A DNA stretch of 64,000 bases from Sneathiella limimaris (GTDB lineage: Bacteria > Pseudomonadota > Alphaproteobacteria > Sneathiellales > Sneathiellaceae). The notes beneath the pieces were generated by a model. That model saw nothing but the letters and a program-made list of their open reading frames with translations. It was not told the origin of the DNA and ran no database searches. The position numbers were made by a program, and so were the translations under genes. The stretch is taken from NCBI RefSeq assembly GCF_012932565.1, contig NZ_JABBYJ010000003.1, positions 1-64,000 of the forward strand. Direction: 5' to 3'. Each line of letters starts with the position of its first letter. Position 1 is the first letter of the stretch. Below, one piece after another: positions 45,284 through 55,242 of this stretch.

Positions 45284-45316
45284 GCAGAGGGTTTTATTTT
45301 GAGATTGGGTCAGCTA

Positions 45317-45907
45317 ATGGCATCATCCGACAGTCAAGGCGACTGCTCTCCTTCCACGCAATCAGATGCTTTTGATCTGAATGTGGATCTGGTTCGGGTG
45401 GCTGAGCATGCTGACCGCGCAGCTTATCGCAGAATTTTTTTACACATGGCTCCGAAGGTGAAAACCTTTCTCTTAAAAAGCGGGTTGTCTCCTGCGGAGT
45501 GTGAAGAAGTTTTACAAGACACCATGATGAAGGTTTGGAGAAAAGCTGCCTTATTCGATCGCTCTAAATCGGCCGCTTCGACTTGGATATATTCGATTGC
45601 TCGAAATGCCAGGATAGATCGGATACGAAAAGAATACAGACCACTTCCCGATCCGGAAGATCCTTCCTTTGTTCCAGATCCACCTGAAACAGGTGAAGAA
45701 GCTGTATCTCGGGAGCAAAATCGAGAAATGATTCAAGAGGCCCTCAGCTCATTACCATCAGAACAAATTGAGATCATCACCATGTCTTTTTTCGAAGAGA
45801 AATCACATGCTGAGATTTCAGAGGCACTGAACTTACCATTGGGAACCGTGAAGTCACGGATCAGGCTGGCATTCGGGAAAATCCGTGCCAGGTTGGAGGC
45901 TATGTAA
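45317..45907 (+). CDS. rpoE: ECF sigma factor RpoE (ChrR-controlled, ECF11-type)
   Basis: An ECF sigma factor of about 196 residues. Region 2 (LQDTMMKVWRKAALFD...ASTWIYSIARNARIDRIRK) and region 4 (LSSLPSEQIEIITMSFFEEKSH, EALNLPLGTVKSRIRLAF) are complete. Together with the ChrR-type gene that starts inside its stop region (TAATG), it is the singlet-oxygen/photooxidative-stress sigma of the Rhodobacter type. The ATG at 45317 fits a promoter at 45278; a TTG at 45299 with AGAGGG upstream is the alternative. It controls the neighbouring lipid operons by the promoters noted. Confidence 0.93.
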   Translation: MASSDSQGDCSPSTQSDAFDLNVDLVRVAEHADRAAYRRIFLHMAPKVKTFLLKSGLSPAECEEVLQDTMMKVWRKAALFDRSKSAASTWIYSIARNARIDRIRKEYRPLPDPEDPSFVPDPPETGEEAVSREQNREMIQEALSSLPSEQIEIITMSFFEEKSHAEISEALNLPLGTVKSRIRLAFGKIRARLEAM

Positions 45908-46599
45908 TGAGTAACATGCAAAATTCGATCAATCATCATATTAACGATGATACATTGTTGGGTTATGCGAACGCTACTTTGGCAGGGACTCTGTCACTTG
46001 TTGTCGCTACTCATCTATCAGTCTGCCCAAAATGCCGGAAACAGCTGGATTTGGTTTTATCCGTTGGCTCAACCTTCTTAGATCAAGCTGACAATAATGA
46101 CCTTTCATCGAAAGAAATGTCGTTTTTGGATGAGATTGTTGCAACTCCTCAGGACGCTCCTCAGGCTCATGAGGAAGATATAACAGCTGAAAAGCTCACG
46201 AAGGCTATAACAGTACCTGGTCCGCTGAACAATTTTATACCCTGCGAGCTTGATGAGATCCCATGGAAACGTTTGGTTCCTGGCGTATCTCACTACCCCC
46301 TGCAGGGTATAAAGAATGGTGATGGTAAAGGAGCCTTGCGCTTACTCAAAATCGATCCCGGAACCACACTGCCAGAACATACCCACAGTGGTCAGGAGCT
46401 TACCCTTATTCTAAAAGGTTCCTATATCGATGAAGTCGGACGTTTTGCCGAAGGGGACATAGCAGACCTTGATGATAGCATCCATCATCAGCCGGTAGCT
46501 GATACAAGTGTGGAATGCATTTGCTTAATCGCAACAGATGCCCCGCTCAAGTTCAAGGGCTTCTTTAGTCGGTTGCTGCAGCCAATTATCGGGATTTAG
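45907..46599 (+). CDS. chrR: Anti-sigma factor ChrR with cupin domain
   Basis: A 230-residue zinc anti-sigma factor. The N-terminal domain has His in NHHINDD and the HLSVCPKC (HxxxCxxC) zinc motif, which binds RpoE; the C-terminal half is a cupin (EHTHSGQELTLILKGSY... with the later HHQPVAD His), which in Rhodobacter is needed to respond to singlet oxygen. Translationally coupled to rpoE. Its end overlaps the convergent hutG gene by 14 bp. Confidence 0.93.
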   Translation: MSNMQNSINHHINDDTLLGYANATLAGTLSLVVATHLSVCPKCRKQLDLVLSVGSTFLDQADNNDLSSKEMSFLDEIVATPQDAPQAHEEDITAEKLTKAITVPGPLNNFIPCELDEIPWKRLVPGVSHYPLQGIKNGDGKGALRLLKIDPGTTLPEHTHSGQELTLILKGSYIDEVGRFAEGDIADLDDSIHHQPVADTSVECICLIATDAPLKFKGFFSRLLQPIIGI

Positions 46600-48930: not shown

Positions 48931-49494
48931 TTATGAAGAGGGCAGTAACACAGTATCAATAACGTGAATAACACCGTTGGACTGCTTTACGTCCTCGATG
49001 GTGACATTTGCAATATTACCTTGGCCATCCTTGATCATAATTTTATCTTTGTCGTACATTGCGGTAAATTGGCAGCCACCAACAGTCTTCACAGCAAGAG
49101 TTCCACCATCATTATCAACCATCTGCTTGATTGGATCAGACAAGGCCTTTGCAGCCAGTACGTGACAGGTCAGGATTTTTGTAAGTGTTTCTTTATTTTC
49201 TGGCTTCAGCAGATTTTCAACAGTACCTTCTGGAAGCTTGGCAAAAGCAGCATTTGTTGGGGCAAACACTGTGTATGGCCCATCTCCCTGCAAAGTGTCC
49301 ACCAAACCAGCTGCTTTCACGGCAGCAACTAACGTCGTGTGATCGTCGGAGTTCATCGCATTTTCGACAATCGTTTTACTCTCATACATGGGGGCACCGC
49401 CAACTTCCGGATTGTCTGCTACAGCAGTACAAGCGCCGAGTGCAAGCATAGAGACGGCAGCTACAGGAAGAACAGCTTGTTTTAAGAGTTTCAT
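48931..49494 (-). CDS. Fasciclin-domain lipoprotein
   Basis: A 187-residue protein with lipoprotein signal (LPVAAVSMLALGAC, Cys about 21) and one fasciclin (FAS1) domain: TTLVAAVKAAGLVDTLQGDG, PYTVFAPTNAAFAKLPEG and the C-terminal NGVIHVIDTVLLP. Probably an envelope adhesion or stress protein; homologues are sometimes in sigma-E regulons, but I see no such promoter here. I start at the ATG at 49494, with GAGGAG upstream; the ORF continues to 49572 without a good site. Confidence 0.9.
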   Translation of the reverse strand: MKLLKQAVLPVAAVSMLALGACTAVADNPEVGGAPMYESKTIVENAMNSDDHTTLVAAVKAAGLVDTLQGDGPYTVFAPTNAAFAKLPEGTVENLLKPENKETLTKILTCHVLAAKALSDPIKQMVDNDGGTLAVKTVGGCQFTAMYDKDKIMIKDGQGNIANVTIEDVKQSNGVIHVIDTVLLPSS

Positions 49495-49670
49495 TTTAAT
49501 CTCCTCGTTAGACCCCACCCTTCGTGGATGGTTGCAAGGAGATACGGAGATCCCATAAATTAGGATTACCAAAACTATGTGACAGACATCACAAAGTTGT
49601 AAACTACCAAGATTAAAAATTATCTAAACGGTGACAGGAACCTTCAAAGGCTCCTGCCAACCTTCAATTA

Positions 49671-50030
49671 TTATCTAGAAAATCCAGCGGCAGATGTCAT
49701 AAGAACCGCCCCTAAGGGAGCCATTGCTTTCTTCACTTTTTCATCTGGGTTTCCATAGAGTGTTGTTCTTTTAGGCTTCAACACTGACATGAAACGCTTC
49801 GCAAATTTGGAACCGAAATTGCCCATATGGATCATCGTGGTTTCACAATTGGAATAGCGTTCAAAGATATGACATTCCGTTTCGTCTGCGCTCAACGACC
49901 ATTCATAATTCAAAGCACCAGGTTCATCTGCCTGCGTTGCTTCTGACATTTCCTGCATAAGAGCTTTCAACTCTTCCAGTTTCCCGTCGACAACATCGGC
50001 TTCTATTATCCAGTAAACGTGGTCTGACAT
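49671..50030 (-). CDS. Antibiotic-biosynthesis-monooxygenase-fold protein
   Basis: A 119-residue protein with the dimeric alpha-beta ABM/YgiN fold: VYWIIEADVVDGKLEELKAL, EPGALNYEWSLSADE (the EPGxLxY motif) and ECHIFERYSN. Most such proteins are small monooxygenases or stress-linked quinol-type enzymes; the substrate is unknown. Start at 50030 by typical position. The next leftward gene, for the fasciclin protein, is not coupled. Confidence 0.85.
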   Translation of the reverse strand: MSDHVYWIIEADVVDGKLEELKALMQEMSEATQADEPGALNYEWSLSADETECHIFERYSNCETTMIHMGNFGSKFAKRFMSVLKPKRTTLYGNPDEKVKKAMAPLGAVLMTSAAGFSR

Positions 50031-50098
50031 CTTCTTCCCCATAATACTTGTTATATTTAGCGCACTATAACAAAACTGTTCAGGGAACCCAGAGCTTA

Positions 50099-50596
50099 TT
50101 AATTATTTTTTTCTTCAGCGACAACCGGAACACTTGGCGTAATCTTGGAGTCTTCAATAATCTGCGCACCCCACTCCTCAATCAGTCGGCTTCGCCGTTT
50201 ATCCAAACGTTTTACATGTTGTTTTGCTTGAATTTCATATGCCGACTGCACAAGAATTGGGACCCCCCAAAGTAACACTGCAGCCAGTCCGGCGCCGCCA
50301 TACATTAACAACCAGTTGTAAACATCAGCCAGCAATCTGAACGCTTGATCAAGGGTATGCCCTTTCTGATACAAAAAACCCAATACAGGGATAACACCTG
50401 CCAGATTAAATGCTGCCATCGCCGCGATTGTTCCTCGTAATTCATTTGGATTTGCAAAACGGGCTGCAATTGTTGGTGTTAGTCCAATACCGAGAATAAT
50501 GAGGGTTGGCGGTGCGAAAACAGCTCCCAAAGCAACAAACAAAAGGAGTGAGACAACATTACTGGATTTTTTCTTAGCTTTTACTGTTTTTGCCAT
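50099..50596 (-). CDS. Membrane protein paired with pseudokinase (unknown)
   Basis: A 165-residue protein I do not recognise. Three predicted membrane segments (about residues 14-34, 58-75 and 88-115), a lysine-rich N-terminus (AKTVKAKKKSS), and a charged C-terminal cytoplasmic tail (KQHVKRLDKRRSRLIEEWG). Its start follows the pseudokinase stop without a gap (TAA/ATG adjacency), so the two are made together and may form one membrane complex. The ATG has a weak upstream site inside the preceding gene. Confidence 0.7.
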   Translation of the reverse strand: MAKTVKAKKKSSNVVSLLLFVALGAVFAPPTLIILGIGLTPTIAARFANPNELRGTIAAMAAFNLAGVIPVLGFLYQKGHTLDQAFRLLADVYNWLLMYGGAGLAAVLLWGVPILVQSAYEIQAKQHVKRLDKRRSRLIEEWGAQIIEDSKITPSVPVVAEEKNN

Positions 50597-52615
50597 TTAG
50601 GACCCCAAAAAGTAAAGATAAGAAAAGCCCATGCTACTCAGTAGGGCTGCAATCGAGATAACAGAGGCTATCCATTGGCCATATTTCTTTGCCGCCAATT
50701 CACGAGCCTTGCCCCCGTTTTCTAGCAAACTGATGCTCTCCGATACGTACTTAAACTCTTTGATCGCCTGCTCATATTCATCCGCATCGCGACGGATGTT
50801 GTTCATCAAATCGATTTCGCCAAGAATTTTCTCGATGTTGCCACTCTCAATAGCCTTCTCGAGCTTTTTCTTCACAAACTCACGTCTTATTTCCGAATGA
50901 ATTTTACCGATTACGGGATTGAGCAATCTCTTCACCCACAGACAAAGCCCAGGTTTCGGAGAAGGGCTTAATTGCGATTGCATTCGCCCAAACATGGTGA
51001 TTAGCAATAGGGTATACTCAATACCACCCTGTGGCAGGTTCCCAAGCTTCTGAAAATTTTTAGAAAGAAATTTTGTCCGAGAAGCTATGAATGCGGCTAT
51101 ATGGCGATCAAATGGATTAATCTTGCCATCTGTTTTAAATGCTCTCTCTTCAAGTACATCCAACAGATTTTCGACTTTTCGCACATAACTTCCCTGAAGG
51201 GTCGTACTCATGCAGCCAAGGGAGGGATTTAGCTCATACAGGCAACGCTCTATTCCGTAGCCCATCTTTTCCCTTTTTTCCATATATTCAAAACAGTCGG
51301 TTGCCTTTCCCAGGGCAATCCAACTGTTGTCTTTGCGTCGCCCAGCCTCAACTTGATCAAGATCACTATAAACTGCATCAAGCAGGACACCGGATTCCAA
51401 CATTTCGGCAATTGCAGACTTTAAAGGGCCATCGCTCCTGAAAGCAGACGCCAACAGCGAGCCCAGCCCCCGTCTTGAAAATGTCGCTTCACGATACCAG
51501 AATGCTCCTCGATTATCGAGGATAGCGCTTACTCGTGATACACATTGCAATTCAATCCGCTTACTACCTCCACCGCCACGCATTTTATTGCGTACAGCGT
51601 CACCAACTCGCCGGCTTGCTTCTTTATCATTCAGTGAGTTACGAACCCAACTCTCAACCTTTCCACTTTCAAGCAGCGTATATGCCTGAGCTGGCCTACG
51701 TGTCATTGCGAGCGCCAATAAACGAGGGGAAAGATAGTCTTTGCCTTCAAAAATAATCGGACCTGGTGCTTGGCGATCCCCAAAACCAGGACGTGGACGT
51801 TCGTAAACGCCATCCCGCCAACGAATGAGCACCTCGATATTCCAGCGCCGATAGGGGTCATCGTTCAGCAAACCTGCTAACAAAAAACTGACCCGCGAGG
51901 ACGCTGGGATTTTAGGAACTAAAACTGCATAGGTACCATGCTGGAGTTTTGCGGCATAAAGCTCGTTTGCAGACTTTCCTTGACCAGGAACGATACCCCC
52001 CAGCATATGCACTATCAACACGCCGAGTGCATAAATATCAGCCATGATATTGCCATCGCCTCGACCATCGGGCAACGAATTAGCACTCTCAACAGGTTCA
52101 TACACAGCGGGTTGAAGAGTAGCGGGCGGTAAAGAGACACAGTCTCCAAGCGCTATCCCCGCCTTTTCATTTTCCAGGAAATATATATTGTCGGCACGAA
52201 TATTCCGATGCGTAATCTCTCGAGAAGAAAAGTTGATGATTAAATCAACAAGCTTTGGAACGATAACGTTCAAAACTTGCTGCTCATTCAGAGGCCGTCC
52301 CTCTGTGAAAACAGGTCCGCCACTGGGAAATTCGAAAATAAAAACGTACCGAAAATCAGAGCTATCGAATTGAACAACGCCATGGGAATGCAGGTCTATA
52401 ATACCTGGCAAGCTTTTCCCTGTCAGGGCTTCAACTACCTTTTCGCGAAAGGGAATACCTGGAGCCAAAACCAGTGCAAAAACCACATTATTAGGGTCGC
52501 GGATATCCTCAGCTCTATAAGCGAGATTTTCTCCACTGTTTAAGTGAGGTAGCGCTTGCTGTAACAGAACTCTGTACCGCCCCCTGAGTATACCAAGTTC
52601 CTGCTGGTTATCCAT
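50597..52615 (-). CDS. Serine/threonine pseudokinase with C-terminal membrane anchor
   Basis: A 672-residue protein whose first ~290 residues follow a protein kinase fold. The catalytic loop reads HRNIRADN (136-143), with Asn in place of the catalytic Asp, DFG is replaced by GDC (near ALGDCVSLPP), and no Gly-rich loop or VAIK lysine is visible. The kinase landmark DIYALGVLIVHMLGG (about 193-207) is intact, so the fold is kept but catalysis is unlikely. The middle ~300 residues are helical with no known domain; the C-terminus is one membrane helix (SVISIAALLSSMGFSYLYF). The adjacent small membrane gene follows directly. Confidence 0.75.
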   Translation of the reverse strand: MDNQQELGILRGRYRVLLQQALPHLNSGENLAYRAEDIRDPNNVVFALVLAPGIPFREKVVEALTGKSLPGIIDLHSHGVVQFDSSDFRYVFIFEFPSGGPVFTEGRPLNEQQVLNVIVPKLVDLIINFSSREITHRNIRADNIYFLENEKAGIALGDCVSLPPATLQPAVYEPVESANSLPDGRGDGNIMADIYALGVLIVHMLGGIVPGQGKSANELYAAKLQHGTYAVLVPKIPASSRVSFLLAGLLNDDPYRRWNIEVLIRWRDGVYERPRPGFGDRQAPGPIIFEGKDYLSPRLLALAMTRRPAQAYTLLESGKVESWVRNSLNDKEASRRVGDAVRNKMRGGGGSKRIELQCVSRVSAILDNRGAFWYREATFSRRGLGSLLASAFRSDGPLKSAIAEMLESGVLLDAVYSDLDQVEAGRRKDNSWIALGKATDCFEYMEKREKMGYGIERCLYELNPSLGCMSTTLQGSYVRKVENLLDVLEERAFKTDGKINPFDRHIAAFIASRTKFLSKNFQKLGNLPQGGIEYTLLLITMFGRMQSQLSPSPKPGLCLWVKRLLNPVIGKIHSEIRREFVKKKLEKAIESGNIEKILGEIDLMNNIRRDADEYEQAIKEFKYVSESISLLENGGKARELAAKKYGQWIASVISIAALLSSMGFSYLYFLGS

Positions 52616-52736: not shown

Positions 52737-52764
52737 AAAAGGTGGCTATTTTAAGCCACCTTTT
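52737..52764. terminator. Terminator downstream of purA
   Basis: AAAAGGTGGCT-ATTTTA-AGCCACCTTTT: 7-bp GC stem extended by A/T flanks; T-run on the minus strand (CCTTTTTTTGTTTG). Ends the leftward purA transcript. Confidence 0.85.
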
Positions 52765-52785: not shown

Positions 52786-54078
52786 TTAATCTGAGAATGG
52801 ATCCTTCACCAAGATCGTATCTTCACGCTCTGGACTTGTAGATACCAAAGCAATTGGCGCTTCGATTAACTCTTCAATCCGGCGGATATATTTTACCGCA
52901 GTTGCAGGAAGTTGATCCCAGCTTCGAGCACCAAATGTGCTGTCCTGCCAACCTTCAAGTGTCTCATAAACAGGCTCAACCTTGGCCTGATCTGTCATGT
53001 TTGATGGATAATAATCCAGAACTTCATCACCAAGCTTGTATCCTACGCAAACTTTAAGCTCATCCATCCCGTCAAGCACATCAAGTTTTGTAAGGGCGAT
53101 ACCACTAATTCCACCAGTTTTAACAGCTTGGCGAACCATCACTGCATCAAACCAACCACAGCGCCTTTTCCGGCCTGTCACAACACCAAATTCACGACCT
53201 CGTTCTCCAAGTCCCTGCCCGACTTCATCGAACAACTCCGTTGGAAAAGGCCCTTCCCCAACGCGAGTTGTATAAGCCTTCGTAATGCCAAGGACATAAT
53301 TGATCGAACTTGGGCCCATGCCACTACCGACCGCGGCCTGACCTGCAACTGTGTTTGAAGAAGTGACAAATGGATATGTGCCATGGTCATTATCGAGCAT
53401 GGTGCCTTGTGCCCCTTCAAACAGGATAAGCTTGCGTTCGCGTTTAGCCTCATCTAGGCGTCTCCAAACAATGTCTGAAAATTCCAGAATTTTAGGGGCA
53501 ATGTCCAGAAGCTGCTGAAGCAATTGATCGCCATCAATAGGTTCAGCATCCAGCCCTTTGCGGAGTGCATTATGATGGGTCAGCAAAGTTGCGATTTTCT
53601 TTTTCAGCAACTCTTCATCCGTTAGATCGCTCACCCGGATAGCGCGACGGGCAACCTTGTCCTCATAGGCAGGTCCAATGCCTCGTCTGGTTGTTCCGAT
53701 CTTGACACCTGTAGTGGCGTCTTCACGCAAAGCGTCCAGTTCACCATGGCAAGGCAGGATCAACGTCGCATTTTCTGCAATCTTGAAATTTTCCGGGGTA
53801 ACCGTGACACCCTGCCCTTTCAAAGTTTCAATTTCTTTCAGCAATGCCCATGGATCGACAACAACACCATTGCCAATGACTGACATTTTACCACCACGAA
53901 CAATTCCAGATGGCAACAAGCTCAACTTATAGACTTTTCCATCAATGACGAGCGTATGACCCGCGTTATGACCGCCCTGAAAACGGACAACTACATCCGC
54001 ACGCTCAGAAAGCCAATCCACAAGCTTACCCTTGCCTTCATCTCCCCATTGGGAGCCGACCACAGCAACATTTGCCAT
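52786..54078 (-). CDS. purA: Adenylosuccinate synthetase
   Basis: Ligates IMP and aspartate using GTP in AMP synthesis. The 430-residue chain has [20 protein letters not shown] with the P-loop, [26 protein letters not shown] and the [12 protein letters not shown]-containing C-terminus. The length is as expected. An 18-bp gap separates it from the preceding hisZ stop, so hisZ-purA is probably one operon. Confidence 0.97.
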
Positions 54079-54096: not shown

Positions 54097-55242
54097 TTAT
54101 GAACTTGTATTCAATACCTGAATTTCACTGGCCAAAAGAATATGGCTACATCCCATACGTTTGGCATCTTCTTCAGCGGTTAGATCACTGGATAGACCTC
54201 TAACAGTCACCCAGCCTTCATTCCTGAAACCAGCAGCTTCTGCTTCAGAAGTTCCAAGTGGAATGTAGAGCCGTTTGGCTTTTTGCGTTGCTGGGACCGC
54301 TCTCAGTAGGCTGTCTAGAAACAGAGTGAAGCCCGTCGCTGTTTCACCATCCAGGAGATGGTAACGACCGCCGCGGCCCAACTCACCCCGAACATTCCGG
54401 GCAAATAGTGTAAAACTAATCCCTGTCTGATATTCGAAACCTCTATATTCACCCGGATCAATCGTCAGAACCAAATCTGGCTCGGATGCAGACAGCATAC
54501 TTACAAGGCGTCTTAAATCCTCAACTTGATCAGTCGCTTTTGGCGGCAGATCCAGTTTCGAAAGTTGGTCCAGTGATTTCTTGGCCGGCCCCGCAGCTTT
54601 CAATAAGCTCTCCAGAATAGGGGCTAAATCCCCAAAATCCTCTAATACCGCAGCATCCTTGTGATCCAATGCTTCCCTTGCAGCATCTGCAGTTTCAGCA
54701 TCAATTCCAAGTTCCTCACAAATTGTTGGCAAGAGCGTTGGGAGGGTCAAGTCGATGGAGTATCGCTTAATTCCAAGTGATTTAAGTCCCTCACTCGCGA
54801 GCAAAATTAGCTCTGCATCGGCTTCGATCCCTTCATGACCGATCAATTCAACACCAGCTTGCGTGAATTGCCGTTCAGGGCGCAGTTGACTACCAAACAC
54901 CCGAAGCACTTGACCACAATAGGAGAGCCGGAGCGGACGCGCTTCCTGTTTCAAACGGGTTGTTGCAACACGAGCAACTTGCGGCGTCATATCTGTTCGA
55001 ATCCCCATCATTCGATGGGACGCTGGATCCATGACTCTGAACATTTTAGACGAAAGGGCTGCGCCTGCACCTTCAAGCAAATGCTCTTCAAACTCAATTA
55101 AGGGGGGGCTGACCTTCATGTACCCGTTCAGGGTAAAAACCTTCATAAGGTTTTCACTGACTGCGGCTTCAGCGGCAGCTTCCGGGGGCAACATATCTGC
55201 TAAACCCGCAGGCAGCAGACCTTTTTCAGAGTAACTATTCAT
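54097..55242 (-). CDS. hisZ: ATP phosphoribosyltransferase regulatory subunit HisZ
   Basis: A HisRS-like regulatory subunit of 381 residues that activates the short HisG enzyme in histidine synthesis. It shows LPAGLADMLPPEAAAE at the N-terminus, motif 2-type RMMGIRTDMTPQVARVATTRL, and FTQAGVELIGHEGIEADAE; the class-II synthetase arginine and histidine residues for tRNA charging are incomplete. hisG is not adjacent. First gene of hisZ-purA. Confidence 0.93.
   Translation of the reverse strand: MNSYSEKGLLPAGLADMLPPEAAAEAAVSENLMKVFTLNGYMKVSPPLIEFEEHLLEGAGAALSSKMFRVMDPASHRMMGIRTDMTPQVARVATTRLKQEARPLRLSYCGQVLRVFGSQLRPERQFTQAGVELIGHEGIEADAELILLASEGLKSLGIKRYSIDLTLPTLLPTICEELGIDAETADAAREALDHKDAAVLEDFGDLAPILESLLKAAGPAKKSLDQLSKLDLPPKATDQVEDLRRLVSMLSASEPDLVLTIDPGEYRGFEYQTGISFTLFARNVRGELGRGGRYHLLDGETATGFTLFLDSLLRAVPATQKAKRLYIPLGTSEAEAAGFRNEGWVTVRGLSSDLTAEEDAKRMGCSHILLASEIQVLNTSS

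Follow-up and report, generated by a model that had tools for sequence, protein, structure and literature searches.

In the window analyzed here, a 64,000-nucleotide stretch of Sneathiella limimaris DNA, two adjoining minus-strand genes encode a degraded protein kinase (KIN) and a small membrane protein (MEM), which form a conserved and apparently unstudied two-protein unit in a large part of the Alphaproteobacteria. From sequence comparisons and structure models we infer, with slightly better than even confidence, a complex and its topology, a client, a scaffold role and a mechanism: KIN would be a pseudokinase scaffold, anchored by its tail and bound to MEM in an obligate complex of the inner membrane. 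The pair and its conserved surroundings are laid out as follows.

50597-52615, minus strand: KIN, putative tail-anchored pseudokinase of 672 aa (open reading frame, Pfam, model, alignment), with a predicted kinase fold at ~5-270, two hairpin-plus-helix units at ~287-420, helices to 601 and a long helix at 603-671, the end of which is the membrane anchor
50099-50596, minus strand: MEM, small membrane protein of 165 aa (open reading frame, model), with a basic N-terminus, a broken hydrophobic helix at 11-48 with a conserved Pro-Thr, a helix at 54-78 and a long helix at 92-151 with invariant Trp142 and Gly143
52737-52764, minus strand: intrinsic-terminator-like stem of 11 pairs plus a T run (consensus match), after purA and before KIN
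52786-54078, minus strand: purA (adenylosuccinate synthetase), conserved upstream neighbor, not counted in the system
54097-55242, minus strand: hisZ-like gene with a tRNA-synt_His domain, conserved neighbor

MEM begins immediately after the stop codon of KIN, with 0 intergenic bases, so that the description given by an earlier, sequence-only reading of this DNA (two open reading frames without a gap, the second encoding a membrane protein) agrees with the coordinates, lengths and junction found here.

KIN matches the Pfam Pkinase family with an E-value of 7e-6 and 26.1 bits, just below the curated cut-off of 31.7, and all 68 KIN relatives scanned match this family at E-values up to 1. The AlphaFold2 model, built with an alignment of 68 sequences, has a pLDDT of 91.2 and a pTM of 0.85. 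Residues 5-270, the only part of the model covered by the fold-search results, superimpose on the solved WNK1 kinase structure 6cn9 with a Z-score of 23.3 and an rmsd of 2.9 over 249 residues at 16% identity, and a Hanks-type bilobal kinase fold is confidently predicted for this region. The sequence-only reading had recognized kinase fold landmarks in the 672-residue protein and had named in advance a predicted structure lacking that fold as the result that would speak against it; the model does show the fold.

The active site within this fold has been largely dismantled. Across 115 aligned KIN relatives, counted as rows without de-duplication by species, the Asp of the HRD motif is replaced in every sequence (A 50, S 22, G 18, N 9, others), the window KIN reading HRN; a Lys at the beta-3 (VAIK) position occurs in 0/115, and the Gly-rich loop is lost throughout. 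These three losses had been read from the window sequence alone and hold for the whole family. Residues important to the architecture are kept (D193 and G207 in 115/115, E173 and R257 in 114/115), as are R57 (112/115), R140 (105/115) and N143 (111/115) in the pocket. The absence of a DFG motif, also claimed earlier, is literally true, but the position of its Asp is probably occupied by D158, judging from an alignment and from strands in the model: position 158 aligns to the DFG Asp of L153, an active relative, and is acidic in 105/115 sequences (E 55, D 50), the spacing from the catalytic loop to 158 is equal in KIN and L153, and residues 154-156 form the preceding strand in the KIN model. A pairwise HMMER alignment of KIN with MELK sets DFG three residues earlier. 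If the placement of 158 is right, the Mg-binding pair of N143 and an acidic residue may survive in KIN while the Lys and the catalytic Asp are gone, and the stripping of the active site, although real for Asp, Lys and Gly-rich loop, would be less complete than the sequence-only reading supposed. The best reading of alignment and model together is a kinase fold without kinase chemistry, with catalysis lost; use of a nucleotide or metal via N143 and acidic 158 is possible.

Beyond the kinase domain, the KIN model contains beta-hairpin-plus-helix units at ~287-366 and ~372-420, more helices, and a 69-residue helix at 603-671. The C-terminal membrane helix proposed earlier is present in 68/68 KIN relatives, where the anchor is followed by a median of 3 residues, while no Pfam family is common to the C-terminal regions of the 68 relatives scanned. 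Positions 22-435 of the KIN family profile match L153 with an E-value of 2.4e-29, so that the kinase domain and the first C-terminal units are common to both. Because these parts are shared, the comparison points to an active kinase built like L153 as the ancestor of KIN.

The MEM model (pLDDT 90.9) contains helices at 11-27, 29-38, 40-48, 54-78, 82-90 and 92-151, and all of 55 MEM sequences share P41, N64, P70, W142 and G143. Mean charges over these 55 sequences (K+R versus D+E) are 4.1/0.75 in the N-terminus, 2.2/1.15 in loop 1, 0.4/2.05 in loop 2 and 5.95/4.9 in the tail. Positively charged segments of membrane proteins tend to face the cytoplasm (the positive-inside rule), and given this charge bias the N-terminus, loop 1 and tail would be cytoplasmic. 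In such a topology the first hydrophobic stretch would be a broken or re-entrant hairpin. The earlier description of MEM as a three-helix protein with a basic tail thus stands as regards three hydrophobic stretches and the basic tail, but the first helix is broken and the N-terminus is basic too. MEM matches no Pfam, NCBIfam or PADLOC family, and its model has no fold match (best Foldseek E-value 1.5).

KIN is found in 23/25 genomes of the window's order, the two without it being 66% and 56% complete, and in 100/289 alphaproteobacterial genomes by single-sequence search and by profile search alike. The MEM profile finds the same 100/289 genomes, as confirmed by a check of set equality; the two class-wide profiles were built from sequences of the very families that they detect, and the 289 genomes are related, so this 100/100 co-occurrence does not represent 100 independent events. 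KIN and MEM are adjacent in 98/100 genomes, with both genes present but apart in the two exceptions (G209 and G279). Counted by gene, 105/117 KIN hits are followed immediately by MEM on the same strand and 12/117 have no detectable adjoining MEM, three of these being fragments and one lying at a contig end, while 9/114 MEM hits stand alone. The profile co-occurrence search therefore speaks against the pair being separated in most genomes, the second outcome that the sequence-only reading had held would count against it. The pair is kept even in genomes of 1.4-2 Mb. That about one in three of the alphaproteobacterial genomes sampled keeps the dead kinase together with its small membrane partner points to a basic role at the membrane.

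A sample of 397 genomes from the phylum outside the class yielded, among the matches listed, only partial, kinase-domain ones, the best being L153. A scan of GTDB genomes returned 392 KIN relatives, the best 80 of which come from genera including Sneathiella, Magnetospirillum, Thalassospira, Rhodospira and Terasakiella, from alphaproteobacterial MAGs and from a few oddly labelled MAGs; culturable genera with the pair include Thalassospira, Magnetospirillum and Azospirillum. Alphaproteobacterial KIN-MEM loci also occur in public MAG records under the names Stygiobacter, Paceibacterota and Methylocystaceae (L080, L094, L098, L114), probably through binning or labelling errors. The KIN of L022/L024 (G011:C18:390293-392279, Sneathiella-like) is divided into two open frames at about residue 349/350 by a frameshift or assembly error, and G036 and G150, from one genus, each have three extra MEM copies far from a single KIN (L160-L162, L164-L166). 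Alignments A1 and A2 exclude L010, L019 and L021-L025 as fragments or split genes, and A2 also excludes a few MEM rows with long or short frames; A4 holds 68 of the 80 named loci, the window being counted among the 68, and A5 has 55 rows.

The usual gene order, taken from the 80 named loci and the window, is serC-serA-hisZ-purA-KIN-MEM, followed on the opposite strand by rpoH and rluD (neighbors were named by eye; public annotation confirms purA, hisZ, serC and rpoH). The terminator-like stem in the purA-KIN gap of the window suggests that KIN and MEM are transcribed there as a separate unit; in the 6-kb stretch, 13 terminator-like consensus sites were found versus 5.8 expected. A stricter stem search gave hits in 12/71 purA-KIN gaps, versus 0.5 expected in shuffled sequences, and in 0/65 KIN-MEM gaps. 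Co-transcription of purA and KIN is possible in other genera, where the gaps are 50-90 bp. In some Sneathiella genomes (L067, L069-L072) this gap is ~1.3 kb instead of 0.1-0.3 kb.

Among 90 further KIN neighborhoods, 53 contain at least one usual neighbor, 28 contain none within at least 3 kb on each side, and nine are too short to classify. MEM stays alongside KIN in 21 of the 28 relocated loci, from 15 families, and tandem KIN-MEM-KIN-MEM duplications copy both genes. Because relocated pairs stay together and duplications copy both, KIN-MEM, and not the purA locus, is the unit under selection. The purA operon was considered as a functional clue and rejected, since the terminator-like stems and relocations make purA a neighbor and not a partner. 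No third gene was found to be common to the relocated pairs when 92 neighborhoods were labelled (90 with a KIN match) and 25 loci, mostly relocated, were viewed by eye; type VI secretion, flagellar and GT41 genes each neighbor KIN in only one or two lineages. GT41 glycosyltransferases lie near an extra KIN lacking MEM (L150) and near a KIN-MEM pair (L146). In the window, MEM is followed on the minus strand by genes for an ABM-domain protein (49671-50042) and a fasciclin-domain protein (48931-49572); besides the window, 11 of the 80 named loci, each of them Sneathiella-like, have the ABM gene adjoining the pair (12 loci together). On the plus strand at 45299-46599, a sigma-70 family factor gene is followed directly by a ChrR-type cupin gene, an arrangement like that of an ECF sigma and anti-sigma pair.

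The statement that no kinase or phosphatase lies nearby holds for the ten neighbors of the pair that were scanned, and extends to the whole genome (G000) for Hanks-type kinases, where the sole Pkinase match is KIN itself. Across the genus, 13/17 genomes have no Pkinase match outside the KIN locus. Since the genome contains no other Pkinase match for which KIN could be a regulator or decoy, regulation of a partner Hanks kinase is unlikely here, making this genome a clean case of a pseudokinase role without a kinase to regulate.

The sequence-only reading had suggested a membrane scaffold or sensor, and both are candidate roles. In the scaffold mechanism that we favor, KIN would be cytoplasmic and held by its C-terminal helix, with MEM beside it in the inner membrane and the long third helix of MEM reaching into the cytoplasm. 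The kinase fold, having lost catalysis, would serve as a binding platform, either a scaffold or an allosteric switch, by which KIN would bring a cytosolic client to the membrane or pass on a state sensed through MEM. This reading is favored by the retention of structural residues alongside loss of the HRD Asp, the anchor in 68/68 relatives, perfect co-occurrence with near-perfect adjacency, pairs staying together after relocation in 15 families, tandem duplication of both genes, and the lack of another Pkinase match in the genome for KIN to regulate or decoy. Against it stand the unpaired copies of both genes (12/117 and 9/114), the lack of a third gene common to relocated pairs, and the retained N143 and acidic 158, with which KIN might use a nucleotide or metal. 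Covariation between KIN and MEM columns (113 pairs) did not enrich the KIN tail, which contributed 7 of the top 60 column pairs versus 6.3 expected.

The conserved pocket allows other functions to be envisaged. KIN might be a nucleotide- or metal-gated sensor that binds its ligand with N143, acidic 158, R57 and R140 and reports an energy or stress state via MEM with no phosphorylation, and the conservation of these four positions, together with conserved arginines contacting nucleotide in models of DLHK pseudokinases (PMC12599244, available portion), keeps this in consideration. We nevertheless regard it as unlikely, as the whole family lacks the Gly-rich loop and beta-3 Lys and the assignment of 158 to the metal site depends on the alignment and model strands, from which the MELK alignment departs by three residues. 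A broader version, to which we give somewhat less credence still, makes KIN-MEM a core, ancient alphaproteobacterial membrane switch, in which non-catalytic binding of nucleotide or metal by the same four residues would be relayed through MEM to a membrane process; if true, it would be a two-protein signalling system without any phosphotransfer. The conserved polar set could instead mark a new enzyme, the altered pocket catalyzing a transfer reaction other than a kinase's, like SelO and SidJ. This seems improbable, because those precedents are listed in the available portion of PMC12599244 with the ATP-motif Lys and a D at the DFG position, whereas KIN has no such Lys and often a Glu.

A role as an EssB-like assembly scaffold for a particular envelope machine, such as the flagellum or type VI secretion, is improbable to a similar degree. 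One genome carries a KIN-MEM-KIN-MEM array followed immediately, on the same strand, by flhA- and motA-like genes that were named by eye (L144, G137:C2:120000-138000), and in one genus extra KIN copies without MEM sit directly beside the type VI secretion genes TssA and TssM (L147, G139:C35; L149, G221:C5). Such settings are rare, however: of 81 classifiable neighborhoods, two have TssA/TssM and one has flhA/motA, while 53 lie by purA, rpoH or their neighbors, and genomes of only 1.4-2 Mb keep the pair. Finally, public records name KIN a serine/threonine protein kinase, and an ordinary active enzyme with unusual motifs would fit that label; with neither the catalytic Asp nor the beta-3 Lys in any of 115 sequences, we consider this very improbable. 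It is apparently because of this annotation that the function of KIN-MEM seems to have been overlooked.

The earlier suggestion that the pseudokinase-membrane pair falls outside named families is upheld, as neither protein matches one beyond the weak kinase domain. Against PADLOC, KIN has only weak matches at E-values of 0.05 or less, all of them within or close to the kinase domain, with the furthest ending at residue 303; the only match elsewhere is to SIR2 (E-value 0.058), and no PADLOC match supports a known anti-phage defence kinase beyond the kinase domain of KIN. Judged by title or the start of the abstract, none of the open-access papers listed in literature searches is recognizable as dealing with the pair. 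A review of bacterial pseudokinases (PMC12599244) names seven pseudokinase-rich families in its available portion, and the KIN family is not recognizable among the families described there; it may be one of the 42 classes of the bacterial kinase atlas under another name. As described in that portion, the GLW family resembles KIN in being proteobacterial and in having a pseudokinase domain followed by a membrane segment, but its HRD is replaced by GLW and it carries a poly-Leu motif; KIN has HR[A/S/G/N] with the Asn kept, and the GLW motif occurs in 0/115 KIN sequences. The pseudokinase domain of MviN (ActPs3) is likewise a degraded kinase domain on a membrane protein, but is primarily actinobacterial, with an activation-loop deletion and other motifs (PMC12599244, same portion). 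DLHK keeps the HRD Asp, which KIN does not.

L153 (G317:C21, 5988-8627), from another class of the same phylum, shares with KIN the kinase domain and first C-terminal units and, by eye, hydrophobic C-terminal stretches. It differs in its length of 879 aa and in keeping HRD, DFG and Lys, and is apparently an active kinase judging from these motifs. Its neighbors are an NrdG-like radical SAM gene, a Clp-type ATPase gene and Cas3, with no MEM match in the 16-kb stretch around it; a similar ATPase and radical-activating operon is described for the DLHK pseudokinase of Pseudomonas in the available portion of PMC12599244.

The nearest functional precedent found for KIN as a scaffold is EssB/YukC of the T7SSb system, as described in the available portion of PMC12599244. 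No secretion gene set goes regularly with KIN-MEM, and no T7SSb genes were recognized by eye in the KIN neighborhoods. EssB/YukC is described from Firmicutes and for T7SSb, while KIN is an alphaproteobacterial protein of 672 aa with its anchor at the very C-terminus. Like KIN, EssB/YukC has an anchored cytoplasmic pseudokinase domain; its three catalytic motifs are degraded, it has membrane partners, and its membrane-anchored pseudokinase domain acts non-catalytically in recruitment and homodimerization (PMC12599244, same portion).
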